Source of the DNA: Ruminiclostridium sp.
GTDB lineage: Bacteria; Bacillota; Clostridia; Oscillospirales; Ruminococcaceae
DNA length: 41,978 nucleotides
Direction of reading: 5' to 3'
Assembly (NCBI GenBank): GCA_017395555.1
Contig: JAFPUE010000003.1
Location: 1 to 41,978 of the forward strand
Below the pieces are notes generated by a model. It had not been told where the DNA came from, searched no databases, and saw only the letters and a program-made list of their open reading frames with translations. Below are positions 17,535-34,865 of this stretch, piece by piece. The first letter of the stretch is position 1. Each line of letters opens with the position of its first letter. Both the position numbers and the translations under genes were made by a program.

Positions 17535-18596
17535 TTATCTCACTCCCATCGTAAATACATAACCATACTTTTCAGCGTTTTTTTCTAAATAAGATTCTCC
17601 TGCCCGTGAGGCATATTCGATATATAGAGCATCATTAACATCGTTTTTGCTTATAATGCCTAATTTCAAATCGTTTGAAATCATTTTAGAAGCATTTGTC
17701 CAACTAACGACCTTTTTATATTCGTTAGCAAATTCTAAGTTGTCAGTTGCTTTCGCTGTTCTTAACAGAGAATAATATATACCTTGTGGGGTTGAAGCCC
17801 TTAATTCAAGAACTTTATCTTTAATGGCGTTATTAATATCATTAAATGAAAAACAACCTCCACTCGGATGATTATGAGTGAAAATATTGTCAACAAGTAA
17901 ATCCTTAGGCGGTTCAACACTATGTGCCTCACCACCAGTAACATTAATAACCTTACCTGTTCGGTCAATAATAGTTCCAACCTCATAGTTAAGATGTTCT
18001 TTTTCCTTCTCAACTTGATGTAAGGTTACGTTTATAGCATCTCGATTTTGCTCATATTCATCATATACAGAAAGTGGTTCTTTTTCTTCCATTATACCAC
18101 TATTTTCGGAATTGTCAACACTCTCGGCAGAATTTTCCGTTGTTCCGATCTGTTCCCGTTCCGCTATCATCTGATCGAGCCTTTGCTCAATCTCCTCGAT
18201 AGAGGTTCCTTCAAGCATCCTGTCGATATCAGCCTGGATATCTTCAAGCGTATCCTGCGGTGTGGTAACCTTACACCGACAGAACGGATGCATCGGAGGA
18301 CAGTTCACACCGACAGCCGCGTCGGCTATCTTGAACCGCTGACCGTCGAGATCGTCGCAGGTGTCGCAGACGTTCTCCGCGTTCTCTCCGAGTGAGATAA
18401 ACTCATACTCGTCGAAGCCTGCGTCCTTCATTCCTTTCAGCTCCGCCTGATTGATACAGTAGTTGCTCTCGGTGCGAACGACACGACGCGCCTTGTACAT
18501 TCCGACCTGAAAACGCTCCTCGATCTTCGCCGCCATTTTCGCTTCCGAAGCTCCGGTCAGTTCGCCCTTAAGGAGCACCTGCTTTCTCGCGGACAT
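17535..18596 (-). CDS. MuF-type phage head protein, 5'-truncated, with C-terminal JAMM-like domain
   Basis: About 353 residues from ATG 18596. Residues ~20-130 are a Mu gpF/SPP1 gp7-like head morphogenesis domain: RVVRTESNYCINQAELKGMK, CDTCDDLDGQRF, and PPMHPFCRCKV. After a Glu-rich linker, the C-terminal ~150 residues contain THNHPSGGCFSFNDINNA, an HxHP...SxxD pattern like JAMM/RadC metalloproteins, preceded by NYEVGTIID. The codons are more AT-rich in this part. The open frame extends to 18743, but that part is antisense to a RidA fragment, so the true N-terminus is lost. Probably a delivered toxin domain on a decayed prophage gene. Confidence 0.65.
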   Translation of the reverse strand: MSARKQVLLKGELTGASEAKMAAKIEERFQVGMYKARRVVRTESNYCINQAELKGMKDAGFDEYEFISLGENAENVCDTCDDLDGQRFKIADAAVGVNCPPMHPFCRCKVTTPQDTLEDIQADIDRMLEGTSIEEIEQRLDQMIAEREQIGTTENSAESVDNSENSGIMEEKEPLSVYDEYEQNRDAINVTLHQVEKEKEHLNYEVGTIIDRTGKVINVTGGEAHSVEPPKDLLVDNIFTHNHPSGGCFSFNDINNAIKDKVLELRASTPQGIYYSLLRTAKATDNLEFANEYKKVVSWTNASKMISNDLKLGIISKNDVNDALYIEYASRAGESYLEKNAEKYGYVFTMGVR

Positions 18597-18599
18597 GGG

Positions 18600-18725
18600 G
18601 ACTTCGCGACATTCAACGAGATCTACGGGAAATACTTCACATCGCTTCCCGCAAGAAGCTGCGTGGCGGTAAAGACACTTCCGAAAAACGTTCTTGTTGA
18701 GGTCGAAGTTATCGCGGAAGTCTGA
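18600..18725 (+). pseudogene. ridA: C-terminal fragment of RidA (Rid/YjgF) deaminase
   Basis: The plus-strand frame reads DFATFNEIYGKYF, then LPARSCVAVKTLPKNVLVEV and EVIAEV, the classic C-terminal third of RidA, including the RSCVAV segment with the substrate-binding Arg. The first two thirds are absent; the junction with the MuF gene is at about 18596-18603. A good terminator follows at 18743. Confidence 0.85.
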
Positions 18726-18742
18726 ATAAGGATTTACAAGCA

Positions 18743-18778
18743 AAGACCGTTCACAGGAAAGTGAACGGTCTTGGTTTT
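18743..18778 (+). terminator. Rho-independent terminator of the former ridA gene
   Basis: AAGACCGTTCAC and GTGAACGGTCTT form a perfect 12-base stem with a 6-base loop, followed by GGTTTT. Confidence 0.85.
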
Positions 18779-19302: not shown

Positions 19303-19875
19303 ATGCTTATTAACGAACAGCTTGAAATGCAGAAAATGACAAAGTATAGGCTTAGCAAGGACAGTGGTGTTCCGCAGGCGACAATAAATGATATATGCAG
19401 CGGCAAGGCTGATCCGGAGAAGTGTGCTGCCGGGACGCTTTACAGACTGGCTAAGGTTTTGGGAGTAACAGTCGAGGATATACTGGAATCTGCAAAAGAA
19501 GAATATCGAAGTGCGTTTGAAACCTTCAAGAGTAATGTCTGTCATCATGTTAAGGATATGGGTGACATTGATTTTATGATAGATGTACTTGAATCCGATG
19601 AAATAAGGACTTTATACAACAAGCACTGGTATCCGGAAGCATTATATCTCCTTGCAATGCTTGATTATCTCTCGCGTGTCAATGATGTCGAAATTTGTAC
19701 AAAGTATAATGATATAAGATCAAGAAAGCTGTCAAAACCTATATACCCGACAGGCGTTATTTTAACAAGCGAAGTGTTAAAGTCTGATGAGCCTATGAGA
19801 AAAGCGGAAGAAGAGTCTATTCCCGAATTCCGTCGCTTCAATATAATTGAGAGCGAGGTGAGGAACGTTGTCTGA
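19303..19875 (+). CDS. Xre-family helix-turn-helix protein, candidate antitoxin
   Basis: 190 residues. An N-terminal Xre HTH (~5-65: QKMTKYRLSKDSGVPQATIN, LYRLAKVLGVTVEDIL) is followed by a ~120-residue domain of unknown family. A consensus promoter and very strong ribosome binding site suggest high expression. It overlaps the following nucleotidyltransferase-like gene by 8 bases, the usual order for a DNA-binding antitoxin followed by a toxin. It may repress its own promoter. Confidence 0.8.
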   Translation: MLINEQLEMQKMTKYRLSKDSGVPQATINDICSGKADPEKCAAGTLYRLAKVLGVTVEDILESAKEEYRSAFETFKSNVCHHVKDMGDIDFMIDVLESDEIRTLYNKHWYPEALYLLAMLDYLSRVNDVEICTKYNDIRSRKLSKPIYPTGVILTSEVLKSDEPMRKAEEESIPEFRRFNIIESEVRNVV

Positions 19876-20584
19876 TAAGCCTTTTACAAAAGAAAACCTT
19901 GACATGTACCTGAAGGAACTTGCAAAGGAGTTCAGAAAACGAAACGGGAAAACTGTACCGGCAGAGATCATCCTTATTGGCGGAGCATCAGTAGTCATCA
20001 ACTACGGGTTCCGTGAAATGACATACGATATGGATGCGATAATAAATGCTGCTTCCTCGATGAAGGATGCTATAAACTATGTGGGCGATAAGTTTGAACT
20101 TCCGAACGGTTGGATGAATGATGATTTTCGGAAAACCGGATCTTACACGCCGAAAATTTCTCAGTATGCTAAATATTATCGCACATATTCAAATATTGTG
20201 ACATTCAGCACGATAACTGGCGAATATCTTGTTGCTATGAAGATGATGTCCGGAAGAAAGTATAAGTATGATCTGTCCGACATCATCGGCGTGCTTTGGG
20301 AGCAGGAAAGAGCCGGTGATCCTCTTTCATTGGAAAGGATAAGAAAAGCTGTCGAAGACCTCTATGGTTCTTATGAAGTTATTTCCGGTGAAACAAGACA
20401 GTTTGTTGAACAGGCACTTCAGAACGGTGGCTATAAGGAAATGTATATGAGGACACGGCAGTTAGAAGCTGAGAACAAGGATAATCTGCTTGAGTATCAG
20501 GCTGAAAAGCCGGAAGCTATAACCACGGATAATGTTAATGACGTTATTGATGCTCTCAGAAAAAGAAAAGGGAACAGAAATTGA
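19868..20584 (+). CDS. Nucleotidyltransferase-like protein (DUF6036 type), candidate toxin
   Basis: 238 residues from a TTG start, with GAGGTGAGG correctly spaced upstream; translation is coupled to the Xre gene. IILIGGASVVINYGFREMTYDMD (in part, ~36-58) is the GG-x-S...D-x-D signature of the nucleotidyltransferase fold, as in AbiEii-type toxins. A conserved helical C-terminal half follows. A role in growth arrest or phage defence is inferred from fold and neighbour. It lies between a gene graveyard and an esterase, consistent with horizontal gain. Confidence 0.7.
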   Translation: MSDKPFTKENLDMYLKELAKEFRKRNGKTVPAEIILIGGASVVINYGFREMTYDMDAIINAASSMKDAINYVGDKFELPNGWMNDDFRKTGSYTPKISQYAKYYRTYSNIVTFSTITGEYLVAMKMMSGRKYKYDLSDIIGVLWEQERAGDPLSLERIRKAVEDLYGSYEVISGETRQFVEQALQNGGYKEMYMRTRQLEAENKDNLLEYQAEKPEAITTDNVNDVIDALRKRKGNRN

Positions 20585-21939: not shown

Positions 21940-21968
21940 TTGACATTTGTTGGTGAATATGCTACAAT
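21940..21968 (+). promoter_or_regulatory. Promoter of the NRPS operon
   Basis: TTGACA (21940-21945), 17-base spacer, TACAAT (21963-21968), 32 bases before the NRPS start codon. It overlaps the in-frame ATG at 21947, which excludes that start. Confidence 0.8.
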
Positions 21969-22000
21969 TATATGGAATATATATTAAATGGAGCACAGTC

Positions 22001-25000
22001 ATGATCAAAGAGTTTTATCCTCTGCCCCAGTCACAGAAAGGTATCCTCGTGGAATCTCTTTCTCGCCCGGACACAACCGTTTACAACATACCCAATTTGT
22101 ACCGTCTTTCCGACAAGCTCGATCTCATGCGCCTGAAAAAAGCCGTTGAGACTGCTGTAGCCGCACACCCATATCTGAATGCGGCGGTAGTGACAAACTC
22201 AGACGGTGAGTTCATGATAAAACGGGATGACGAAGCGGTACAGACAGTTGAGTACATTGAGACCGCACACCTCCCGAAGGATCTTGTGACCCCGTTTGAT
22301 CTTCTGAAAGAAAAGCTCTGCCGGCTGCGTATATATAAGACCGATGACGGCAGTTATCTCTTTATGGATTACCACCACATCGTATTTGACGGAACAAGCA
22401 ACAGCATACTGATGTCCGATATCGCCGCGGCTTACAACGGCGGTGATGTAGTCAGTGAGACATATACCGGATTCGATGCCGCTCTCGATGAGGAGAAGCT
22501 GCGGCAGACAGACAGTTATGAGAAAGCCGCAGCATATTTTGCGAAGCTCCTTGCCGAGGCGGAGCCGGATATGCTGCCCGAGGGTGATGTATATGAAAAA
22601 ATGCCTTCTTTGGGCTGTTTCAATATCCGATCAGAGATCGGCACCTCGGAGATCAGTGATTTCTGCAGAAAGAACGGCGTGCGTAAGACAGCTTTCTATA
22701 ATGCGGTGTTCTCGTTCGTGATGTGCAAATATAATTGCAGTGACAATGTCCTGTACACCACGGTAGATAACGGCAGGAATGATCCTCGTCTTGACCGTAC
22801 TGTATCTATGCTTGTAAAGACCATCCCTGTTTTCTGTCATCCGGATACGGAACAGACCGCCTCGGAGTTTGTGCGTGATATCGGCAGACAGATAGATGAA
22901 AGCAAAGAGAACAGTCTTTATTCTTTTGCAGAGATCGCGCATGAGCACCATATCACATCCGATATAATGTTTGGCTATCAGGGCAAAAATTTCCTTTTGG
23001 ATTCTGTGGCGGGAGAGCCTGCGGAGCATACACTTCTTCCCGGTAACGCGGCAAAAGCCCCGCTTCACATCGAGACTTATGAACAGGACGGAAAGCTCCT
23101 GTTTTTCGGCGACTACCGCAGCGATATATACAGCGCTGACTACATAAGCAGGTTGATCGCCTGTCTGGAGCAGGCAGTGCGGGAGTTTCTGCGGGACCCG
23201 CAACTTAAAGACGTTTGCTTTGCGGATGCACGCGCCATTGCGGAAATGGACGCCTTCAACGCCACCGGGACCGACTGGCCGGAAACGGATATAGTCTCGA
23301 TGTTCCGGGAGACCGCGGAAAAATATCCCGAACGCGAAGCGGTGATCTTCCGGGACGAGGTGCTTACCTACCGTCAGGTGGATGAGATCTCCGAGCGTAT
23401 AGCGGGCTTCCTGAGCTCGAAGGGCATCGGAAAAGGAAGGGTTGTTTCGGTGCTTATCCACCGCGGCATCGAAATGGTAACGGCATCGCTGGGCGCTCTG
23501 AAGACCGGGGCGGCATATCAGCCCCTTGATCCGAGCTATCCCACCGAGCGTCTCGGCTTTATGATGAAGGACGCAGACTGCGCTCTCCTGATCGCGGACG
23601 AGGATCTGCTGGAAAAGGTGCCGGAGTATAAAGGACCCGTCCTGCTTACAAAGGACATACCCTCTCTGCCGCTCTGCGGAAAGCTCACCTGCAAGCCGGA
23701 GCCGGAGGATCTTTTCATTCTCCTTTACACCTCCGGCACCACCGGCGTACCCAAAGGTGTTATGCTCGAACACAGGAACCTTGCCAATTTTGTAAGGCAC
23801 TTCCATAATACTTACGATCTCGACAAGGACGGCCGTGTATCCGCTTATGCAAGCTATGGATTTGACGCCTGCATGATGGATCTCTACTCGGCGCTGACAG
23901 TGGGTGCCTGCGTGTGCATCGTCGAGGAGGAGATACGGCTTGATCTTGTTGCGGTGGAGGATATGTTCAACCGCCTGAAGATCACGCACTGTTTTATGAC
24001 CACACAGGTGGCGAGACAGTTCTACACCCTTGCCACGGTGCCGACTTTGCGTTATCTGCTGACCGGCGGTGAGAAGCTGGTGCCGGTGGCTCCGAGAACG
24101 GATATCACGACAGTGTTCGATAACGTTTACGGCCCTACGGAGTGTACTATACTGTCAACATATAAGCACGTTGACAGGCTGTATGAGCGCGTCCCGATAG
24201 GCAAGCCTCTGACCAATTACAAGTGCTATGTTGTGGACAGCAGCCTGAACAGACTGCCGCCGTTCGTTCCCGGAGAGCTTCTTATCGCGGGACGCGGAGT
24301 AGGACGCGGTTATCTGAACCGTCCCGATCTCACCGAAAAGGCATTTATCAAAAATCCATTCAGCGACGATCCCGCATATGCCCGTGCATACCGTTCCGGC
24401 GACGTGGTGCGTCTGCTTCCGAACGGAGAGATCGACTTCATAGGCAGAAATGACAGCCAGGTCAAGGTGCGCGGTTTCCGCATCGAGCTGACCGAGGTGG
24501 AGGGCGTTATCAGGGAATTTCCCGGTATAAATGATGCCACGGTGCAGGCGTTCGAGGACGAGACCACAGGCGAAAAGTTCATCGCCGCCTATGTGGTCTC
24601 CGACAGCAAGGTTGACGTTCCCGCTCTCGATGATTTTATCCGCGAACGCAAGCCCTCCTATATGGTGCCTGCTGTCACCATGCAGATAGACAGAATACCG
24701 CTCAATCAGAACAGCAAGGTGAACAAGCGCGCTCTGCCCAAGCCCGAACCAAAGGTGCGCACTGACGCAGAAAAGACCGGGAATGCGGCACCGCTGAACC
24801 TGCTGGAACAGGAGCTTAAAGAGATAGTCTCCGGTATTGTAAACACAACGGAATTCGGCATCACCGATCTGTTCCGCGATCTGGGTCTGACCTCGATCTC
24901 CAGCATCCGTCTTGCCATGCAGATCTACAAGCGCTTCGATGTTCAGCTCGATACCCGGAAGCTCATCTCGGAGGGCTGCATACAGAGCATTGAGAACGAG

Positions 25001-28000
25001 ATACTTGCAGGTTTCCTTGATAAAGACAGCCGGAAAGACAGTGCTCCCGCCCCGGAGGCTGCTTCCGGGAAGAAGGCTTCTGCACAGTCCTGCCGCCTTA
25101 CCTTCGCACAGCAGGGTGTTTATACCGAATGTCAGGCCGATCCCGACTCGGTACGGTACAATCTCCCCATGACCTTGCGGTTCCCCGGGGGAACTGACGC
25201 AGCACAGCTTGAAGCCGCAGTGCGTAAGGTCATTGACGCGCACCCCTACATTCTCTGCCGGTTTGTTCCGGGCGAGGACAACGAGATCGTTCAGGAGCCT
25301 ATCACCGGTTTTGAGCTTGAAATACCTGTCACAGAGCTCTCTCCCGATGAATACGAGGCGCATAAGAAAGCCTTTGTCCGCCCGTTTGATCTTGCAAAAG
25401 GACCTGCCGTCAGATTTGAGATCGTTAAAACGGACTGCCTTGTCCTGCTTGCGGATATGCATCATCTCGTCAGCGACGGCGCTTCCGTTGATCTCTTCAT
25501 AAGCCAGCTCTGCGGCGCGCTTGACGGAGAGGAACCGGAGAAGGAAAGCTACAGCTATTATGATTTCGCCTCCGAGGAAAAGATCGCGCCGGAAACAGAG
25601 GAATTCTTTGCCGGTCAGATGGCAAACGCGGAAGAGGCAACACGGCTGATACCGGATGTTTTTGACGACGAACTTCCACATACGGAAAGGGAAGTGTCCG
25701 TCGGGACGGATATAGCCGCAGTGAAAGGCTTTGCAAAAAAAATCGGCGTGACACCGGCGGCGGTGTATCTTGCAGGGTGCTATATCGCATTCGGAAGATA
25801 TGTCTGCGAGGACACGGTTGCCATTGCCACGATATCCAACGGCAGACGAAACCTTAAAGTCGGAAACACATTGGGTATGTTCGTCAATACCCTTCCTCTT
25901 GTCATGCCGATCGACAATAAAGAAGCGGCAGCCGACTTTGTGCGCCGTGCGGCGGAAGGCTTCACGGAAACCATTGCAAACGAGAACTATCCCTTTGCCC
26001 GTATCGCGGCGAAGTACGACTTCCGTCCCGCAATATCCTACGCATATCAGATCGGTGTCATAAACGAGTATCGCACAAAGCTCGGTACAGTTGAAACAGA
26101 GCTTATAAGCCAGGATACCGCGAAGATCCCCGTGTCCGTTTTCATCAACGGTACGGAGGATGACGCGCAGATAGCTGTGGCATACGATTCCGCACTGTAC
26201 AGCGAGGAGATGATGCGCGGTCTTGCCGAAAGCATCGGAAATGCAGTGCGCGGACTTATGACCTGCCCGACAATATCGGAGATAAGTCTGACCGACGAAG
26301 CACAGTGGAAGGTGCTCGACGGTTACAACCGTCCGTGGGATCTCGGCTACGACAGGAACGATACTGTTGTTACAAAGTTCAGAAAGATCGTACAGTCTCA
26401 GCCGGACAAGACCGCCGCGGTGTTTAAGGACAAAGCATATACATACAAGGAGCTTGATGAGCTCACAGACCGTCTTGCGGCAAGGCTACGTCGTCATGTC
26501 TGCACTGTGACGGGAAAGGAATGCCTTAAAGAAGAAGTAGTGAGCATCCTTGTGCCGCGAAACGAGAATGTGTTCATTCTCCCTATGGCTGCGGTAAAGG
26601 CCGGTCTTGCCTATGAGCCGCTCGATCCCGGCTATCCCAAGGAGCGTCTGAACTTCATGGTTAAAGATGCGGGTGCCTGCCTGCTTCTGGCGGAGGACAG
26701 CCTTCGTGACCTCGTCGATGAATACGAAGGACCCGTGCTTACGGTGAGCGGGCTTTACGCAATGGACGATGCAGAGCCGGCGGCTTTTGAGCAGTCTCCG
26801 GATGATCTGTTCATTCTGCTTTATACCTCGGGCTCCACAGGTATGCCCAAAGGCTGTCAGATCGAGCACCGAAACGTAGTATCCTACGCTTACGGCGTGC
26901 GCAATGACTTCTACACACAAAATGACAGGATCGCCGCATACGCTTCCTTCGGATTTGACGTGAATATGTCTGATGTATTCTGCACGCTCTTAAACGGCGG
27001 CACGGTTTACCTTATCCCAGAAGATATACGCATGGAGCTCGGAGCCCTTGCGGGCTATTTCGACGAAGTAGGAATTACGGCGCTGCTGCTGACGACACAG
27101 GTAGGAGTTCAGTTCCTGACGAATTATCCGAGTATGAAGACTCTGCGTATGCTGGTAATGGGCGGCGAAAAGCTGCCCGCGGTGGATCCGTCCAGACTCT
27201 CATATACCATTGTGAACGGCTACGGACCGACAGAGAACTGCTGCGGGGTAAGCCTCTTCCCGATCAAAGCATGGGAGCCCAATATACCTATCGGAAAGCC
27301 TATGAGCACTATCCACGCCTATGTCCTTGACAAGACAGGACACAGGCTTCCCGCGGGCGCTGCCGGAGAATACTGTCTTTCCGGCCCGCAGGTCAGCAGA
27401 GGTTATCTCAACCGTCCCGACAAGACCGCCGAGGCCTATGAGCCCTGTCCGTTCAACGAATTCCGTATGTATCATACCGGAGATATCGTTCGTTACCGCA
27501 GGAACGGAGACGTTGAGTTCGTCGGACGCAAGGACGGTCAGGTCAAGATACGCGGCTTCCGCATCGAGACCAAGGAAGTGGAAAGCGTGATCCGCGGCTT
27601 CGCAGGAGTCCGTGACGTGACGGTACAGGCGTATGATTATGAGACCGGAGGAAAATACCTCGCGGCTTTCGTGGTCAGCGATACCGCACTGGACACAGCG
27701 CAGCTTGCCGAATATATAAAGACGCAGAAACCCGCTTATATGGTTCCCGCCGCGATAATGCAGATAGATAAGATACCTCTTACCATAAATCAGAAAGTTG
27801 ACAAGAAGGCCTTGCCGGAGCCCAGACTGCAAAAAGCCGCCTATGTTGCGCCTTCGGGCAGGACAGAAGAGGCTCTCTGCGCCGTATTCGGCAGCGTACT
27901 CGGTATCGAGCGTATGAGCGCGGAGGACGACTTCTTTGATGTGGGCGGCAGCTCAATACTTGCTATGAAGGTAGTCATAGCAGCGGAAAAAGCGGGTTAC

Positions 28001-29344
28001 AGCATAGTTTATAACGATGTTTTCGGCTATCCTACACCGAGAGCTATGGCAGCTTTCATAGACGAACGTGAAGGAAATGCAGCCCGGCCCGCCGAAATGC
28101 CGTCGGAAACCGATGCGCAGACAATAACCGAGATCGGCAGGGACGGATACGATTATGGCAGGATAAACGAGCTGCTTCGCCGTAACACAGTCGAGGCGTT
28201 CCGGGGTGGAAAACAAAACCCGCTGAACGATGTGCTCCTGACGGGCGCGACGGGCTATCTCGGCAGTCATGTTCTCCATGAGCTTATAACAAACCACGAC
28301 AACCGCATCTTCTGCTTTGTCCGTCCCGGAAAAGATCAGAGCGGACAGGAACGTCTCATGTCGCTGCTGCGGTATTATTTCAATGACGATTATTCCGGGC
28401 TCTTCGGTTCGAGGATATCCGTGATAGAGGGCGACGCAACGGACCCCGACGCGCTGATGTCATTTGCGGCTCCCTGTGCGGATATGACCGTTATAAACTG
28501 CGCGGCAAGCGTCAAGCATTTTGCACGCGGCGACGAGATAGAACGCGCAAATATGGGTTCGGTACGCAATCTTACCGCGTGGTGCGAAAAGAATAACGCC
28601 CGTCTGATACACATTTCCACAGGCAGTGTTGCCGGAGAACGGCAGAACGGTGTACCGCCGCTGAGCTTCCGTTTTGACGAGCACAGCCTGTACGCGGGTC
28701 AGATCATTGACAACAATCAGTATGTACACTCGAAATTCATGGCAGAGCGCCATGTCTATGAGGAAATACTCGACCGCGGTCTGCGCGCAAAGGTACTGCG
28801 TATGGGCAATCTTGCCCCGAGGGCGGAGGACGGAGAGTTCCAGATAAATTATACGACAAACAGTTACATGAACAGCTTCCGGGCATTCCGGGCACTGGGT
28901 ATGATAAGCTATGACGCGCTTGACCGGAATGTGGAGTTTTCTCCGATCGACAGCATTGCCAGGGCGGTAATTGCCCTTGCGGGAACGCCGGACGACTGCA
29001 TCTGCTTCATTCCGCTCAATCCGCACCGCCCGCTCATAGGCGATGTTGTACGCGCATTGAACGAGGAAGGATATACGGTTCGCGGTGCGGAGCCCGAGGA
29101 ATTTATGGCGGCGCTGCATGAAGCTCTTTCCGATGAGACGATGCGCGAGGCGGTAAGCACTCTGGCGGCTTACAACAGCGGCAGCGATACACAGGAGATC
29201 GGACCGGAGAGCTGCGACAATTCCCTCACGATGCAGATACTGGAGCGTCTCGGATTTTCGTGGCCGGAGACCGGCGTTTTCTACATACGGCAATTCGTTG
29301 CTAAACTGAAGCAAAAAGGCTATTTCGGAGGAGACCTATCATGA
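22001..29344 (+). CDS. Nonribosomal peptide synthetase C-A-T-C-A-T-reductase
   Basis: 2447-residue dimodular synthetase; start ATG 22001 has GGAG seven bases upstream. C1 (~5-415) has HHIVFDG at ~124. A1 (~419-900) has LLYTSGTTGVPKG, YGPTE, and a specificity code read as D-A-M-F-L-G-V-I-L, hydrophobic and Leu/Val-like. T1 carries LGLTSIS (~960). C2 (~1033-1425) has HHLVSDG. A2 (~1440-1940) has code D-V-S-L-V-G-G-C-G, unassigned. T2 carries DVGGSSILAMK (~1981). The terminal SDR-type thioester reductase (~2072-2447) has GATGYLGSH and the catalytic YVHSK. Known chemistry predicts an N-acylated dipeptide released as an aldehyde, which may cyclise. Overlaps the next gene by ATGA. Confidence 0.93.
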   Translation: MIKEFYPLPQSQKGILVESLSRPDTTVYNIPNLYRLSDKLDLMRLKKAVETAVAAHPYLNAAVVTNSDGEFMIKRDDEAVQTVEYIETAHLPKDLVTPFDLLKEKLCRLRIYKTDDGSYLFMDYHHIVFDGTSNSILMSDIAAAYNGGDVVSETYTGFDAALDEEKLRQTDSYEKAAAYFAKLLAEAEPDMLPEGDVYEKMPSLGCFNIRSEIGTSEISDFCRKNGVRKTAFYNAVFSFVMCKYNCSDNVLYTTVDNGRNDPRLDRTVSMLVKTIPVFCHPDTEQTASEFVRDIGRQIDESKENSLYSFAEIAHEHHITSDIMFGYQGKNFLLDSVAGEPAEHTLLPGNAAKAPLHIETYEQDGKLLFFGDYRSDIYSADYISRLIACLEQAVREFLRDPQLKDVCFADARAIAEMDAFNATGTDWPETDIVSMFRETAEKYPEREAVIFRDEVLTYRQVDEISERIAGFLSSKGIGKGRVVSVLIHRGIEMVTASLGALKTGAAYQPLDPSYPTERLGFMMKDADCALLIADEDLLEKVPEYKGPVLLTKDIPSLPLCGKLTCKPEPEDLFILLYTSGTTGVPKGVMLEHRNLANFVRHFHNTYDLDKDGRVSAYASYGFDACMMDLYSALTVGACVCIVEEEIRLDLVAVEDMFNRLKITHCFMTTQVARQFYTLATVPTLRYLLTGGEKLVPVAPRTDITTVFDNVYGPTECTILSTYKHVDRLYERVPIGKPLTNYKCYVVDSSLNRLPPFVPGELLIAGRGVGRGYLNRPDLTEKAFIKNPFSDDPAYARAYRSGDVVRLLPNGEIDFIGRNDSQVKVRGFRIELTEVEGVIREFPGINDATVQAFEDETTGEKFIAAYVVSDSKVDVPALDDFIRERKPSYMVPAVTMQIDRIPLNQNSKVNKRALPKPEPKVRTDAEKTGNAAPLNLLEQELKEIVSGIVNTTEFGITDLFRDLGLTSISSIRLAMQIYKRFDVQLDTRKLISEGCIQSIENEILAGFLDKDSRKDSAPAPEAASGKKASAQSCRLTFAQQGVYTECQADPDSVRYNLPMTLRFPGGTDAAQLEAAVRKVIDAHPYILCRFVPGEDNEIVQEPITGFELEIPVTELSPDEYEAHKKAFVRPFDLAKGPAVRFEIVKTDCLVLLADMHHLVSDGASVDLFISQLCGALDGEEPEKESYSYYDFASEEKIAPETEEFFAGQMANAEEATRLIPDVFDDELPHTEREVSVGTDIAAVKGFAKKIGVTPAAVYLAGCYIAFGRYVCEDTVAIATISNGRRNLKVGNTLGMFVNTLPLVMPIDNKEAAADFVRRAAEGFTETIANENYPFARIAAKYDFRPAISYAYQIGVINEYRTKLGTVETELISQDTAKIPVSVFINGTEDDAQIAVAYDSALYSEEMMRGLAESIGNAVRGLMTCPTISEISLTDEAQWKVLDGYNRPWDLGYDRNDTVVTKFRKIVQSQPDKTAAVFKDKAYTYKELDELTDRLAARLRRHVCTVTGKECLKEEVVSILVPRNENVFILPMAAVKAGLAYEPLDPGYPKERLNFMVKDAGACLLLAEDSLRDLVDEYEGPVLTVSGLYAMDDAEPAAFEQSPDDLFILLYTSGSTGMPKGCQIEHRNVVSYAYGVRNDFYTQNDRIAAYASFGFDVNMSDVFCTLLNGGTVYLIPEDIRMELGALAGYFDEVGITALLLTTQVGVQFLTNYPSMKTLRMLVMGGEKLPAVDPSRLSYTIVNGYGPTENCCGVSLFPIKAWEPNIPIGKPMSTIHAYVLDKTGHRLPAGAAGEYCLSGPQVSRGYLNRPDKTAEAYEPCPFNEFRMYHTGDIVRYRRNGDVEFVGRKDGQVKIRGFRIETKEVESVIRGFAGVRDVTVQAYDYETGGKYLAAFVVSDTALDTAQLAEYIKTQKPAYMVPAAIMQIDKIPLTINQKVDKKALPEPRLQKAAYVAPSGRTEEALCAVFGSVLGIERMSAEDDFFDVGGSSILAMKVVIAAEKAGYSIVYNDVFGYPTPRAMAAFIDEREGNAARPAEMPSETDAQTITEIGRDGYDYGRINELLRRNTVEAFRGGKQNPLNDVLLTGATGYLGSHVLHELITNHDNRIFCFVRPGKDQSGQERLMSLLRYYFNDDYSGLFGSRISVIEGDATDPDALMSFAAPCADMTVINCAASVKHFARGDEIERANMGSVRNLTAWCEKNNARLIHISTGSVAGERQNGVPPLSFRFDEHSLYAGQIIDNNQYVHSKFMAERHVYEEILDRGLRAKVLRMGNLAPRAEDGEFQINYTTNSYMNSFRAFRALGMISYDALDRNVEFSPIDSIARAVIALAGTPDDCICFIPLNPHRPLIGDVVRALNEEGYTVRGAEPEEFMAALHEALSDETMREAVSTLAAYNSGSDTQEIGPESCDNSLTMQILERLGFSWPETGVFYIRQFVAKLKQKGYFGGDLS

Positions 29345-30414
29345 AGCTGTTCCATGAACGGATAACGGAATACGCGGCACAGTTTCCCGATAAAGCGGCG
29401 GTGACCGATCCCCACGGAGAGATCAGCTACGCACAAATGGAGGCGCTGAGCGCGTCCTTCTCCAGTGTACTTTCGGCACTCGGAGTCGGAGCGGGGGACG
29501 CTGTCGCGGTCTATGTGCCGTATGTGAAGGAGATACTGCTCGGAGCGGTCTCGGTCTTTCGTGCGGGAGCTGTGTTCATTCCCTTTGATCACGGATATCC
29601 CACAGAGCGCCTGACGTATATGCTGGAGGATTCCGACGCAAAGGCGATAATGACAATGCGTGAGCTATGGGAACAAAAACCCCTCGGCTTTCCTGCGGAA
29701 AAAGTCATTTTTATGGACGAACCGCCTGCGCATGAACAAGCGGAGGTTCGTTACGAAGACCTGTCCGATGATTCCCCCGCGATGCTCCTTTATACATCCG
29801 GCACGACAGGAAAGCCGAAGGGCGTACTGCATATCCACAGTATGCTGCTGCATATCGTGGACTGGATGAATATACACGAGGGCGCGGAAATGGGCGGGAA
29901 GACCAGTTCCGGCGTCATCACAAGCTTTGCCTTCGTGGGAACGCAGATGTTCCTGCTCGGTCCCCTGTCAAAGGGCGGCACGGTCTGTATAGCTCCGGAA
30001 GAGGCTCGCAGCGATCTCGGATATCTGCATAAGTTCCTGCTGCAGCAGCACATAAGCCACATTTTCGTGCCTTCCGGACTCGCGACCATACTCGCGGAAG
30101 ACTATGATATCAGCGGAATATTCGTATTCGCCGCCGGTGAAAAGCTGAGGAATTTCAGACCGCTCGTTCCCGGAAATTTCCTGATAGACAGCTACGGCAG
30201 CACTGAAACGGGCGGTGTACTGTCGAAAAAGATATACGGAGACGAGGCGCGTATTCTCGTCGGAAAGCCGTTTGTAAATACCAAGGCCATGATTGCGGAC
30301 GAAGAGATGAAGCCGGCGAAGCCCGGAGAAGCGGGAGAACTGCTGATATCCAACGCGTTTATGTCTCGGCAGTATTGGAAGCAGCCGGAGCTTACCGCAG
30401 AAAATGGACGGTGA
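29341..30414 (+). CDS. NRPS second gene, part 1: adenylation domain, ends at a frameshift
   Basis: 357 residues of an adenylation domain (MLLYTSGTTGKPKGVLHIHS, YGSTETGG, GELLISNAFMSRQYWKQPE). AGGAGAG precedes the ATG, which overlaps the NRPS stop by 4 bases. The frame stops at 30412-30414. One extra A in the run at 30401-30404 would restore GAA-AAA-TGG and join it without loss to the next frame, so parts 1 and 2 are one gene (29341-32474). The A3/A4 region reads FAFVGTQMF where amino-acid-activating domains have FDAS; no Asp aligns with position 235, arguing for a carboxylic acid rather than an alpha-amino acid. Confidence 0.85.
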   Translation: MKLFHERITEYAAQFPDKAAVTDPHGEISYAQMEALSASFSSVLSALGVGAGDAVAVYVPYVKEILLGAVSVFRAGAVFIPFDHGYPTERLTYMLEDSDAKAIMTMRELWEQKPLGFPAEKVIFMDEPPAHEQAEVRYEDLSDDSPAMLLYTSGTTGKPKGVLHIHSMLLHIVDWMNIHEGAEMGGKTSSGVITSFAFVGTQMFLLGPLSKGGTVCIAPEEARSDLGYLHKFLLQQHISHIFVPSGLATILAEDYDISGIFVFAAGEKLRNFRPLVPGNFLIDSYGSTETGGVLSKKIYGDEARILVGKPFVNTKAMIADEEMKPAKPGEAGELLISNAFMSRQYWKQPELTAENGR

Positions 30415-32474
30415 CGGACGGCGAGACGTGGTGTCACACCGGAGACAGGGCTTTGCTTACCACCGAAGGAGATTTTGATATCCTCGGACGTATCGACAAC
30501 ATGGTCAAGCTGCGCGGTTTTCGCATAGAGACCGGAGAAGTCGAGGCGCAGGTCTCCGCAGCTGCGATAAAACTCGGCAGAAGCGACGTGAAACAAGTCG
30601 TGGTAGTCGTAAAAAACGTCAGCGGCACAGATCATCTTGTCTGCTACTATGAATCGGAACGGGAGATTGACAGTCAGGCTTTCACGGATGAGATAGCCAA
30701 AAACCTCACGGATTATATGATCCCGAAGATCTGGGTCAGAATGGACTCCATGCCGCGCAACGCCAACGGCAAGGTAATGCGCGGAGAACTGCCGCAGCCG
30801 AGCAGAGACCGGAAGAATACCCATTACGAGGCTCTTGACAGCGAGGTGCTTGCGCGTATTGTATATACGCTGGAGGATGTGCTTGACACGTCTGTGTCGA
30901 TAAGTCCGGACGACAGGTTCACCGATCTGGGCGGTACATCACTGACTGTGATCAGATACTGCGCGCTTCTTCGTGAACAGGGCATAAAGATCGCGAGCGC
31001 GCAGGTGCTCCGGCTGAACGTTCTGCGAAAGATCGCGGAGGAGGCGGAGGTAGCCTATGAGCGGCTCTGGACAGAGGAAGAGTACAGTGAGGTGCGGAAA
31101 GACTTTGCCGCGCGGGGAGAGAAGATACTGAAGGTGCTTCCCATTACCCCGGAACAGGACGATATGCTGTTTCAGCAGATACTGTATCCGGATCGCTTCG
31201 ATTTCAGAAACGCTATGTTTCTGCAGATCGACAGCCCTGTATCAGAGAAGGATCTCCGTGAGGTACTTGACATTGTTTCGGAGGAGAACGAAACACTTCG
31301 CTCCTCGATAGTATTCCATGATGTCGGAGTGGTACAGCAGGTCATAACAGACCGTAAGATACCGCTTGAAACTGTGGACACCGAAACGTTCGGAAGCCGG
31401 GAAATGCTCGAAATGAAAAACAGGCTTCTATATACACAGACAGATCTGCAGCGCTCCGGTCAGATACGGGTGATCTATCTGCGCACGGACGGCAGGTATA
31501 TGCTGTGTATTCTTACCAATCGCATAGCTTTCGGCAAAACAAAGCGAAATGCGTTTATTGCCCGGTTGATGGGACTGCTTGAAGAAAGATATCCTCAGGA
31601 TAAGGCGATAAGCGGTTGGCGTGAGCTGCTGGAGGAAAGCCTTTCGGAATTATTGGGAGCCTCTGCGGAGAAAAACGCGGACGTGATCGCAAAAACCGAT
31701 ACAGGCAGAAAAGTGCCGCCCGATATATCCGTCTATTCGGAGAACACGGGTCCGAAGCTCGTCTTTGTTCACACCGCAAACACCGGAAGCTCGGCATACT
31801 ACCGGCTTGCGTCAAGGATCTGCGATAAGGTCTCGTTTTCGGTGATCGAGCCGTTCAATCTGTATCATCCGAAGGAAGCGCGATACGGAATAAGAGAGAT
31901 CGCGGAAAGATATGTTTCGATCATTAAACGCAGTCAGCCGCAGGGACCCTATTATCTCGGCGGCTGGTGCTACGGCGGTGTTATCGCGCATGAAATGGCT
32001 TGTCAGCTTGAAAAGGCGGGCGAGGAAGTACGGTATCTGTTCATGCTGGATTCACACGCAACTACCGACGAACATCTGCGGAGCTCTTTCAGAGCTATGA
32101 GTTCGCAGGTCAACAGGTCATACTTTGAAACAAGCCCGCTGTTCGCCGATCTGAGAGAAGCCGGTATGCTGGAAGATATGATACGCAATTCCGAGCACTC
32201 GTCCGAGGACATGATGAATCATGACCCGTCCGTTTTTCACGGTAATGTTCTGTATTTCAAACCCGATCAGCTTCCGTCCGGAATACCGGAGAAAAGCCGA
32301 CTGTACTGGGAAAAGATGATGGGATTTGAAGCCGGGAACTATGAGAATTATTGCAGCCCTGAAAAGCTGCGGATCATTCATACGCCGCACGAGCATGACC
32401 TTATGATGGATGACCCGTCATTGAACATCATCGTGCCGGAGCTGATGAAAGCGATAGGGATTATTGAAAATTAA
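30375..32474 (+). CDS. NRPS second gene, part 2: A-domain C-terminus, carrier, degenerate C-like, thioesterase
   Basis: Homology begins at ~30405 (WTVTDGETWCHTGD), in the frame reached by a single base change. It completes the A domain (GRIDNMVKLRGFRIETGEVE, A10 Lys in NANGKVMRG). A carrier domain follows with LGGTSLTVI (~30935). A ~160-residue condensation-like lobe (31135-31620) lacks HHxxxDG and reads TNRIAFGKT there. The thioesterase (31735-32470) has nucleophile motif GWCYGG with Cys instead of Ser (codon 31968-31970), Asp in FMLDSH, and His in TPHEHD. The frame's own ATG at 30375 has no ribosome binding site, so part 2 is unlikely to be made alone. Confidence 0.83.
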   Translation: MEAAGAYRRKWTVTDGETWCHTGDRALLTTEGDFDILGRIDNMVKLRGFRIETGEVEAQVSAAAIKLGRSDVKQVVVVVKNVSGTDHLVCYYESEREIDSQAFTDEIAKNLTDYMIPKIWVRMDSMPRNANGKVMRGELPQPSRDRKNTHYEALDSEVLARIVYTLEDVLDTSVSISPDDRFTDLGGTSLTVIRYCALLREQGIKIASAQVLRLNVLRKIAEEAEVAYERLWTEEEYSEVRKDFAARGEKILKVLPITPEQDDMLFQQILYPDRFDFRNAMFLQIDSPVSEKDLREVLDIVSEENETLRSSIVFHDVGVVQQVITDRKIPLETVDTETFGSREMLEMKNRLLYTQTDLQRSGQIRVIYLRTDGRYMLCILTNRIAFGKTKRNAFIARLMGLLEERYPQDKAISGWRELLEESLSELLGASAEKNADVIAKTDTGRKVPPDISVYSENTGPKLVFVHTANTGSSAYYRLASRICDKVSFSVIEPFNLYHPKEARYGIREIAERYVSIIKRSQPQGPYYLGGWCYGGVIAHEMACQLEKAGEEVRYLFMLDSHATTDEHLRSSFRAMSSQVNRSYFETSPLFADLREAGMLEDMIRNSEHSSEDMMNHDPSVFHGNVLYFKPDQLPSGIPEKSRLYWEKMMGFEAGNYENYCSPEKLRIIHTPHEHDLMMDDPSLNIIVPELMKAIGIIEN

Positions 32475-32559: not shown

Positions 32560-32853
32560 ATGACAATTGAGAAGGAAGTAAACGGAAGCTGCGCTAAACT
32601 GATCCTGAACGGCTGGATGGATACCGAGAACGCTCCGCAGCTTGCAATTGCGGTGGACGCACTCAATCCCGAAGTAAAAAGTCTGGTGCTTGATATGGCA
32701 GGGCTTGAGTATATGTCCTCCGCCGGGATAAGGCAGCTTGTCGCTACTCACAAACGCATGAACGGCGAATTGACGCTGAAAAATGTACAGCCTGTGATAA
32801 TGGACGTCCTGAGCACATTGGGGTTTGACAAGAAACTGAAGTTCGAACCGTAA
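32560..32853 (+). CDS. STAS-domain anti-anti-sigma factor
   Basis: 97-residue SpoIIAA/RsbV-type protein. LVLDMAGLEYMSSAGIRQLV holds the phosphorylatable Ser in the MSSAG motif (~54). AAGGAG is well placed before the ATG. It starts 85 bases after the NRPS gene and ends 29 bases before a membrane phosphatase/kinase that should act on it. In the unphosphorylated form such proteins bind a partner kinase or other target. The real output target is not in the window. Confidence 0.88.
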   Translation: MTIEKEVNGSCAKLILNGWMDTENAPQLAIAVDALNPEVKSLVLDMAGLEYMSSAGIRQLVATHKRMNGELTLKNVQPVIMDVLSTLGFDKKLKFEP

Positions 32854-32882: not shown

Positions 32883-34865
32883 ATGAAAATAAAAGCATCC
32901 ATTCTGACACTAATTGCGCTGCTGCTGCTGGCTTCACTTTTACTCTCGGCAACAATAGTCTTTTCGTTCAGTTATAACTATATGCTTGAAGATGCCGAAG
33001 CACAGAGCGTAAGGGTATCCAAGGCGGCGGTCACAGCCGCTCTGACAGCCATAGGCTCAAAAGAAAACCTGTACGCCCTGTATGAAGACGAGGAATTAAG
33101 GGAGCAGCTCCATGAGACATTCCGCTTTATCTGTCAGCAGACTACTCTTAGATATCTGTATCTTTTTACAGTAGGAGAAGACGGGCACAGACACTACATA
33201 GTCTGCGCGGCTGATGCCGACGAGGACGATATGCGATTGCAGACAGAGTTCCCCTTTGGCTCGGTGCGTACTACATCGGTTTATCAGTCTGATATACGAA
33301 TTCTGAACAGGGAGAAGGATGCAGACTATGAGCTGATAAATAATGAGTACGGGTGGGTATGCATGACTATTGTTCCCGTGCTTGACAAAGAAAACAGGAT
33401 AATTGCCCTTATCGGTGCCGACGATCCCATAGAAGATGTCAGATATATAGCAACGCGTAACCTTATAACTCTGACGCTGCTCGGTATCATAGTAGTCTCG
33501 CTCTCTTATGCGATCGCTCTGCTGCTTATAAGAAAGACTGTGACACTGCCTATCATTGCTCTGTCGGAACGAATGAATGTATTTGCCACGGACAGAAAGG
33601 TAAGCATCGGCACCGATAAGCAAAACACATTTTATCCGGATGAGATCGCTGGCATAGAGAACGCGTTCGAGAAGATGACGGTGGATATAGACCTTTATGT
33701 AAATGACATAGAAGCTCTTACAAGAGATCGTGTCTATACCCAGACACAGCTTGATGTGGCAAGAAAGATCCAGAGCGGGATAGTTCCGCGGGAATATGCT
33801 ATGTCGGAAGATCGTTTCGATATATACGGATGTATGTTTGCGGCGAGAACGGTAGGCGGCGATTTCTACGATGTTTTCCGTCTGGACAACGGACAAATAG
33901 GCATTGCAGTCGGAGATATTTCGGACAAGGGTATTTCCGCAGCGCTGTTCATGGCTATGGTAAAAACATCCATCAGGGAAAAGATCAGGGCAGGACGCAC
34001 CCCGGCGGAAACTCTCAATCTCGTGAACCGGGAGCTTTGCGCTTCCAATCCCGGGAATATGTTTGCTTCTGTTTTTGCGCTGACACTCGATCCGGAGACC
34101 GGTATTGTCACCTTTGCGAACGCGGGACATGAAGCGCCGCTTATCCTTGGAAAAGCAACGTCATATCTTAATGTCATGAAAGGGATAGCCATAGGACTGT
34201 TTGAGGATTCGGATATCACCGATGAAAAGCTGGTGCTTTCCGACGGAGAGGGGATACTTCTTTATACGGACGGAATAACCGAGGCCATAGATAAAGATAA
34301 ACAGCAGTTCGGTAAGGACAGGTTAAGAGAAACCGTTCTCGGGAAATACCGGGATAATGCCGATCGTTATGATACACGGGCGCTTGTCTGTGACACTGTC
34401 CGGTCGGTCATGGCGTACACAAACGGAATGGATCAGTTTGATGATATTACCTGTCTCGCAGTCATCTGCAAGGACACCGGAAATGGTACAACTATCCTTC
34501 CCCCTGACGTAAAATCCTTCAGAGTTATAAAAGACATTATCCTGTCACAACTTGGTGAAAGCACCCGTACAAAGAACATTATCCTTGCCTGTGAAGAGGT
34601 CTTCGTAAACATCGCGAGCTACTCAGGGACAGATCGGATCGGTTTCAGCTGTAAACAAAGCAAAAGCACATGGCTGATAACATTCATCGACAACGGTACA
34701 GAGTTTGACCCTGTAAAATCAGAGCGGGAAAAAACGGAATTTGAACAGAGTGATCAAGGAGGAATGGGTATCATATTTGCGCGTAACAACTCAGAAGATA
34801 TGATCTACAACCGGATAGGCGGCAGCAATGTACTGACGATGGTGTTTGACACAGACGGCATTTGA
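32883..34865 (+). CDS. Membrane sensor with SpoIIE-type PP2C phosphatase and RsbW-like kinase domain
   Basis: 660 residues. TM1 ~8-30, an extracellular sensor of ~160 residues, TM2 ~195-216, a HAMP-like linker, then a PP2C/SpoIIE phosphatase ~290-510 (GGDFYD, GDISDKG, NAGHEAPL, LLYTDGITEA, FDDIT). Residues ~525-660 are a GHKL ATPase domain (CEEVFVNIASYSG N box, DNGTEFDP, GGMGI). It thus combines opposing phosphatase and kinase functions on the STAS protein encoded just upstream. AAGGG precedes the start. Directly behind the NRPS genes, it may couple an external signal to the pathway. A terminator follows. Confidence 0.9.
   Translation: MKIKASILTLIALLLLASLLLSATIVFSFSYNYMLEDAEAQSVRVSKAAVTAALTAIGSKENLYALYEDEELREQLHETFRFICQQTTLRYLYLFTVGEDGHRHYIVCAADADEDDMRLQTEFPFGSVRTTSVYQSDIRILNREKDADYELINNEYGWVCMTIVPVLDKENRIIALIGADDPIEDVRYIATRNLITLTLLGIIVVSLSYAIALLLIRKTVTLPIIALSERMNVFATDRKVSIGTDKQNTFYPDEIAGIENAFEKMTVDIDLYVNDIEALTRDRVYTQTQLDVARKIQSGIVPREYAMSEDRFDIYGCMFAARTVGGDFYDVFRLDNGQIGIAVGDISDKGISAALFMAMVKTSIREKIRAGRTPAETLNLVNRELCASNPGNMFASVFALTLDPETGIVTFANAGHEAPLILGKATSYLNVMKGIAIGLFEDSDITDEKLVLSDGEGILLYTDGITEAIDKDKQQFGKDRLRETVLGKYRDNADRYDTRALVCDTVRSVMAYTNGMDQFDDITCLAVICKDTGNGTTILPPDVKSFRVIKDIILSQLGESTRTKNIILACEEVFVNIASYSGTDRIGFSCKQSKSTWLITFIDNGTEFDPVKSEREKTEFEQSDQGGMGIIFARNNSEDMIYNRIGGSNVLTMVFDTDGI

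Follow-up and report, generated by a model that had tools for sequence, protein, structure and literature searches.

The analysed stretch of DNA (hereafter the window; 41,978 nucleotides of contig JAFPUE010000003.1, Ruminiclostridium sp., assembly GCA_017395555.1) carries a nonribosomal peptide synthetase (NRPS) gene, here called gene 1, which is built of two condensation-adenylation-carrier (C-A-T) modules and a terminal reductase (R) domain. A second NRPS gene, gene 2, follows with an ATG that overlaps the stop codon of gene 1; it encodes an A domain (A3), a carrier domain (T3), a half C domain and a thioesterase (TE). With somewhat less than even confidence, we propose that the two genes form a peptide-aldehyde system in which the reductively released end of the gene 1 peptide is coupled to an acid loaded by gene 2. 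The product is probably not a simple N-acyl dipeptide aldehyde, and an acid without an alpha-amino group would most likely be joined to the released end. The initial annotation had predicted an N-acylated dipeptide aldehyde from gene 1: the reductive release on which it relied is indeed the expected one, but the product as stated is incomplete and the A-T-half C-TE partner was missed.

Association of gene 2 with the last module of gene 1

Relatives were collected in one scan of genome contigs with gene 1 as the query, which yielded 22 loci. Among the loci that have an A2-type last module, the A2 domain is the best-kept domain of gene 1 (66-89% identity by segment), A1, C2 and R score lower, and the first C domain is the most variable; the N-terminal modules vary widely among the relatives, whereas the last module and gene 2 are constant. 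Gene 2 is present in 18 of the 18 assessable loci, window included, that have an A2-type last module. This count is a hand tabulation that excludes L013, L017 and L028, which are cut, and the second NRPS of L010, which runs to the end of its locus. Seventeen of the A2-type codes end in GCG, and that of L015, partly read from a gene 1 lying in two frames, ends in GYG. Gene 2 was found in none of the three R-terminated NRPS loci whose last module is of another type (L024, with 2.5 kb left downstream; L026; and contig C34 of the window's own genome).

The N-terminus of gene 1 does not govern this association. Gene 2 accompanies a gene 1 that starts with a C domain (window, L007, L009, L018, L021, L023), with an amino-acid A domain (L010, L014, L016, L020, L025, L027) or with an acid-loader-like domain (L008, L011), and in four further loci the gene 1 N-terminus is cut or unclear (L012, L015, L019, L022). 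Thus gene 2 is not simply the N-terminal cap, and the notion of a general N-terminal loader is weakened by the A-first and acid-loader-first relatives. Since gene 2 keeps to the last module whichever of three types of N-terminus precedes it, action at the reductively released end is the most economical reading. The link is also independent of one gene order: the stop and start codons of genes 1 and 2 overlap at 10 of the 15 junctions examined, that of the window included, while gene 2 lies upstream in L020 and is convergent in L023.

Pairwise distances over 15 loci, compared by Mantel correlation, agree with this picture (gene 2 and last module, r 0.90; gene 2 and A1, 0.65; last module and A1, 0.67). 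None of the 2000 permutations reached any of these three values; therefore gene 2, the last module and A1 all share a history, and the contrast between the correlations is one of strength.

A more distant cousin, L071 (genome G890), encodes an R-terminated NRPS with the order T-C-A-T-C-A-T-R as far as fetched, followed by an A-T-TE protein of 818 residues. The latter shares the GGWCYGG motif with gene 2, contains no C domain and has no Asp in the A4 stretch, where position 235 falls in an alignment gap. This one case suggests that an A-T-TE protein with a catalytic cysteine beside an R-terminated line may be the core of the system, and that the half C domain and the A2 code may be features of the window's branch. 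Next in L071 come a protein of family PF00144, an unassigned one and a fusion of MatE with HATPase_c_2. A BlaR1-type M56 peptidase and PF00144, of the beta-lactamase family, lie close to the R-terminated NRPS of L071 (695-2125 and 6772-7854).

Domain content of the two synthetases

The features of both genes and of their downstream neighbours are collected in Table 1. Gene 1 lies in a single open frame of 2465 codons (21947-29344), in which the ATG at 22001 is the likely start. In Pfam, Condensation, AMP-binding, AMP-binding_C and PP-binding each match twice, and NAD_binding_4 matches at the C-terminus (E 5.4e-32); together with the BLAST placing, these stretches give the domain order C-A-T-C-A-T-R. 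All motifs sought in both C domains, both A domains, both carriers (the serines) and the reductase are present, and such a frame with every motif rules out a chance or artefactual gene. The order and the intact motifs given by the initial annotation were thus borne out by Pfam, BLAST and motif search, its start agrees with the likely one, and both of its nine-residue codes were re-read identically in an alignment of the A domains of the window and the fetched loci. The code positions were set by motif anchors and checked by eye on A3-LgrA alignments. Judged from its code, the A1 pocket looks aliphatic, as had been suggested, and the A2 pocket appears roomy, mostly uncharged and family-specific. 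The short-chain dehydrogenase/reductase-type end, from which an aldehyde had been predicted, is intact, so that release as an aldehyde (or alcohol) would be the expected chemistry.

Table 1. Features of the synthetase genes and their downstream neighbours in the window
Feature	Position	Strand	Basis
Gene 1, NRPS, C-A-T-C-A-T-R	22001..29344	+	Open frame from 21947; Pfam, motifs
C1 condensation domain, HHIVFDG at 22373	22007..23266	+	Pfam, motif, tree
A1 adenylation domain, code DAMFLGVIL	23282..24766	+	Pfam, code alignment
T1 carrier domain	24782..25021	+	Pfam, motif
C2 condensation domain, HHLVSDG at 25460	25067..26326	+	Pfam, motif
A2 adenylation domain, code DVSLVGGCG	26357..27826	+	Pfam, BLAST, code alignment
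T2 carrier domain	27833..28081	+	Pfam, motif
R, NAD(P)H reductase domain, TGATGYLG and YVHSK	28127..29341	+	Pfam, motifs
Gene 2, first frame: A3 core, Val at position 235, early frame end	29341..30414	+	Frame list, Pfam, code alignment
Gene 2, second frame: A3 C-terminal part (A8, A10), T3, half C, TE	30375..32474	+	Frame list, Pfam, BLAST, motifs
T3 carrier domain (LGGTS)	30810..31070	+	Pfam, motif
N-lobe-only condensation domain without HHxxxDG	31080..31652	+	Pfam, PDB profile, model
Thioesterase: Cys nucleophile (GGWCYGG), Asp (LDSH), His (HEHD)	31725..32471	+	Pfam, motifs, model
STAS-domain protein (anti-sigma antagonist type)	32560..32853	+	
SpoIIE-type phosphatase with C-terminal HATPase_c_2	32883..34865	+	

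Gene 2 (29341-32474, + strand) is broken near 30400 in the window's assembly and unbroken in 16 relatives; the break is either real decay or an assembly error. Position 235 of A3 holds Val in 15 loci, Ile in two and Met in one, so that all 18 carry an aliphatic residue in place of Asp235. Such a residue is reported to typify A domains that take keto acids, although the paper in question also gives an exception (PMC10949194). The cysteine nucleophile of the TE is conserved in 17 of 17 gene 2 proteins and HHxxxDG occurs in none of the 17. In all 17 the half C domain matches the N-lobe in Pfam at E 0.01 or better, the window's copy scoring 25.6 bits against a cut-off of 30.6. A profile of this domain matched 15 PDB sequences over the first part of their C domain (best E 4.6e-14), of which 14 are NRPS proteins and one is a phthiocerol dimycocerosate (PDIM) acyltransferase. 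Its predicted model (predicted local distance difference test, pLDDT, 89) was aligned by Foldseek with C domains (8f7f, TMq 0.72, TMt 0.34). The model of the whole of gene 2 reached a predicted template modelling score (pTM) of 0.47, at which the packing of the domains is not readable, and T3 and the half C domain were barely probed in its VIA-align search. In the TE model Asp407 sits right after the next strand beyond that of the nucleophile, which we read as strand 6.

The role of gene 2 and the start of the chain

In the scheme that we favour, gene 1 would join residue 1, chosen by the aliphatic-looking pocket, to residue 2, and the R domain would free the peptide by NAD(P)H reduction. Gene 2 would load an acid without an alpha-amino group on T3, most likely an aliphatic alpha-keto or alpha-hydroxy acid, and the cysteine thioesterase would take over the T3-bound acid and couple it to the C-terminal, reductively released end. 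The half C domain may serve as a non-catalytic docking or scaffold piece, and the STAS and SpoIIE-type proteins may gate expression. An extension of this scheme, which we consider improbable, is that the cysteine TE joins a T3-bound alpha-keto acid to the aldehyde by aldol addition followed by lactonisation to give a peptidyl furanone or related warhead; this would be a C-C-bond ending made by an A-T-TE partner and spread over several rumen phyla.

Several observations weigh against coupling at the released end. Gene 2 is frame-broken here, and if the break is genuine this strain may be without the second step. The C1 domain of the window has no donor in cis, so the feeding of C1 from T3 is a simple alternative, and the loss of Asp235 is compatible with fatty or aryl acids too. 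The sample leans to A2-type loci, as gene 1 was the query and some of the patterns lie in the last module, and the contrast group consists of three loci only. Moreover, the A2 code of L011 carries a Glu in the pocket, and the last A domain of L071 has the code DLGSVGTMG despite a gene 2-like A-T-TE protein; the link to the A2 code is hence not absolute.

The start of the chain bears on the alternatives. The initial annotation had taken the N-terminal C domain to imply acylation of residue 1. In a tree of 45 C domains, C1 groups first with the N-terminal C domains of L007 and L013 and then joins internal C domains of L021 (support 98/90), L024 (100/95) and L011 (96/78 and 100/99). The start C domains of L009, L021, L023 and L028 form a separate clade (99/94), and long branches elsewhere in the tree lead to those of L018 and the second NRPS of L010. 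A constraint test was made on a quick tree of 39 rows, from which L008_559, L018_6 and the domain pairs of L026 and of the second L010 NRPS had been dropped. Forcing the seven remaining start C domains together was 27 log units worse, yet the approximately unbiased test (p-AU 0.079) does not reject a start clade. By the shape of the tree, then, C1 falls among internal C domains, the kind of outcome that the initial annotation had named as refuting its view, while the test leaves the start clade standing. None of the 29 PDB matches of C1 is a recognised starter C domain (CDA, RzmA), whereas the internal C2 lists such entries weakly; therefore the PDB comparison gives no support for a starter C1. 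A match to PvdL was considered as a sign of a lipo-starter domain and ruled out, as the PvdL entries are titled E2-C3-A3. N-acylation of residue 1 would thus seem unproven rather than refuted.

One rival reading is that gene 1 suffices for an N-acyl dipeptide aldehyde like ruminopeptin or the gut bgc products and that gene 2 is a side activity. The C-A-T-C-A-T-R order of gene 1 is that of the rup and gut bgc-type aldehyde NRPSs, and ruminopeptin itself is described as a Leu-Glu dipeptide aldehyde with an N-acyl group; the N-terminal C domain is retained in L007 and L013, the start clade survives the test, and the assembly breaks gene 2. Nevertheless, C1 nests among internal C domains, and a side activity is hard to reconcile with a gene found in every assessable locus that co-evolves with the last module, so that we regard this explanation as unlikely. 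Rather unlikely as well, in our judgement, is that gene 2 acts as a loader in trans, the keto or hydroxy acid on A3-T3 being joined by C1 to residue 1 to give an N-(hydroxy- or keto-acyl) dipeptide aldehyde. The missing Asp235 of A3 would suit such a role, as would the clade of C1, whose other members mostly use carrier-bound donors in cis, one of them (L011_557) behind an acid-loader-like A domain. However, in six relatives with gene 2 the first domain is an amino-acid A domain and C1 is lacking, two have an acid-loader-like A domain in cis, and loading needs no terminal TE. That gene 2 rids the line of stalled chains by trans-editing or hydrolysis seems very doubtful: editing needs neither an A domain and carrier of its own nor a pairing with one type of last module, and the cited text gives Cys as less usual than Ser in NRPS thioesterases (PMC11298585).

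Genomic setting, distribution and known systems

STAS-like matches occur in 12 and SpoIIE-type matches spanning at least 240 residues in 11 of 25 sequences (window, 22 loci, own C34 and L071). MATE exporters with a C-terminal HATPase_c_2 domain, anti-sigma-kinase-like, lie beside the R-terminated NRPS in L008 (6498-8294), L011 (6537-8333), L018 (8000-9976) and L071 (3778-5487); the HATPase match reaches the Pfam cut-off in all of these but L018, where it stays below. In the window's own genome, 87% complete, a single PF01648 phosphopantetheinyl transferase was detected; it lies on contig C34, beside a second R-terminated NRPS. This protein of 2941 aa (C34:1-20000) has three A domains, the first without Asp235, two C domains, an R domain and one PP-binding stretch that passes in Pfam, and is accompanied by its own SpoIIE-type protein. 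A stand-alone condensation-domain protein (468 aa) lies beside an AMP-binding protein (514 aa) on C11:40000-56000 of the own genome. Upstream in the window, a phage Mu F / SPP1 gp7-type gene (17535-18743, - strand) and genes for a helix-turn-helix (HTH) protein and a DUF6036 nucleotidyltransferase-like protein (19303-20584, + strand) form an arrangement that recalls toxin-antitoxin or mobile pairs.

The relatives of gene 1 come mostly from metagenome-assembled genomes (MAGs) labelled Bacillota, and others from Bacteroidota, Synergistota and Actinomycetota. A ruminant gut site is named for eight of these loci, and the nine RUG isolates among the relatives are rumen MAGs; the source is a gut bacterium, probably from the rumen. 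A query made of the half C and TE matched 18 of 391 genomes of the class at E 0.001, the own copy at 5e-272 and the other 17 weakly and partially (best 2e-18). The whole of gene 2 matched 8 of 297 genomes of the family at 1e-60, the own copy and seven others; these seven share 27-32% identity with it and resemble ordinary A domains from other NRPSs. A cut-off of 1e-35 left only the own copy in 394 genomes of the order, and only G683 in 393 genomes of the order of that relative's genome; in the family of G683, 3 of 399 genomes matched at 1e-60, being two loci already among the relatives and the distant G890. These genome samples overlap and are not exhaustive. Viral contigs gave no match to gene 2, and none of 404 plasmid records at E 1e-5 covered 80% of the query. 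A widespread enzyme is thus not borne out by the class, order, family, viral and plasmid scans. SusD was present in five of five Bacteroidota-labelled MAGs tested (that of L017 not included) versus none of two others; the NRPS contig of G683 has one weak CarbopepD_reg_2 match, and none is listed for that of G685. Residence in Bacteroidota is supported, though not proven, by the labels and one clade of the C-domain tree, and binning may have misplaced the short contigs L015 and L016. The presence of the gene 1-gene 2 unit in MAGs of several phyla suggests transfer within the gut community.

The best NCBIfam match of gene 1 is AusA (aureusimine synthetase, NF047350), with residues 701-2456 as the best stretch; at 1291.9 bits against a cut-off of 2500 it is no AusA equivalog, and compared with the A-T-C-A-T-R order of AusA, gene 1 has an extra N-terminal C domain. 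Gut-bacterial aldehyde NRPSs, ruminopeptin included, have already been described (PMC12327764, PMC8518294), and gut acylated dipeptide aldehydes are reported to inhibit cathepsins and proteasomes (PMC8518294), peptide aldehydes being a known kind of protease inhibitor. The rup (Ruminococcus bromii) and gut bgc NRPSs resemble gene 1 in reductive release and in their occurrence in gut Clostridia; the cited text mentions no A-T-half C-TE partner for them, rup being compared by description only. Within the literature searched, in which subscription journals are thinly covered, no description of such a partner was found; a rumen survey counts 5,346 NRPS clusters in 8,160 genomes (PMC8241843). If the partner does capture or alter the aldehyde, product predictions from the reductase NRPS only would be wrong for this lineage, and the half condensation domain and the cysteine TE would be testable parts of a new release logic.

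The regulatory setting has a counterpart in mru0068 of Methanobrevibacter ruminantium M1, described in 2010, whose two C-A-T modules have serine phosphatases, an anti-sigma antagonist and MatE on their flanks (PMC2812497). The window shares with it the two C-A-T modules, the serine phosphatase and the anti-sigma antagonist, and MatE occurs among the relatives. The end of mru0068 is a thioesterase in the text and a thioester reductase in the supplementary legend, and the passages cited describe no A-T-TE partner. The TE of gene 2 resembles those of ObiF and SulM in its Cys-Asp-His triad, but in those two enzymes the Asp follows strand 7 (PMC11298585). Thus, of the features of beta-lactone and beta-lactam TEs, gene 2 has the Cys, whereas its Asp follows what we read as strand 6 in the model. 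There is a likeness in domain order with the non-reducing NRPS-like terphenylquinone and furanone synthetases, which share with gene 2 the order A, T, TE and acid substrates, and which, in the text cited, join two identical aromatic keto acids (PMC9047271). Unlike these synthetases, gene 2 has an N-lobe C domain between T and TE (17 of 17) and is adjoined by an R-terminated NRPS gene in every assessable locus.
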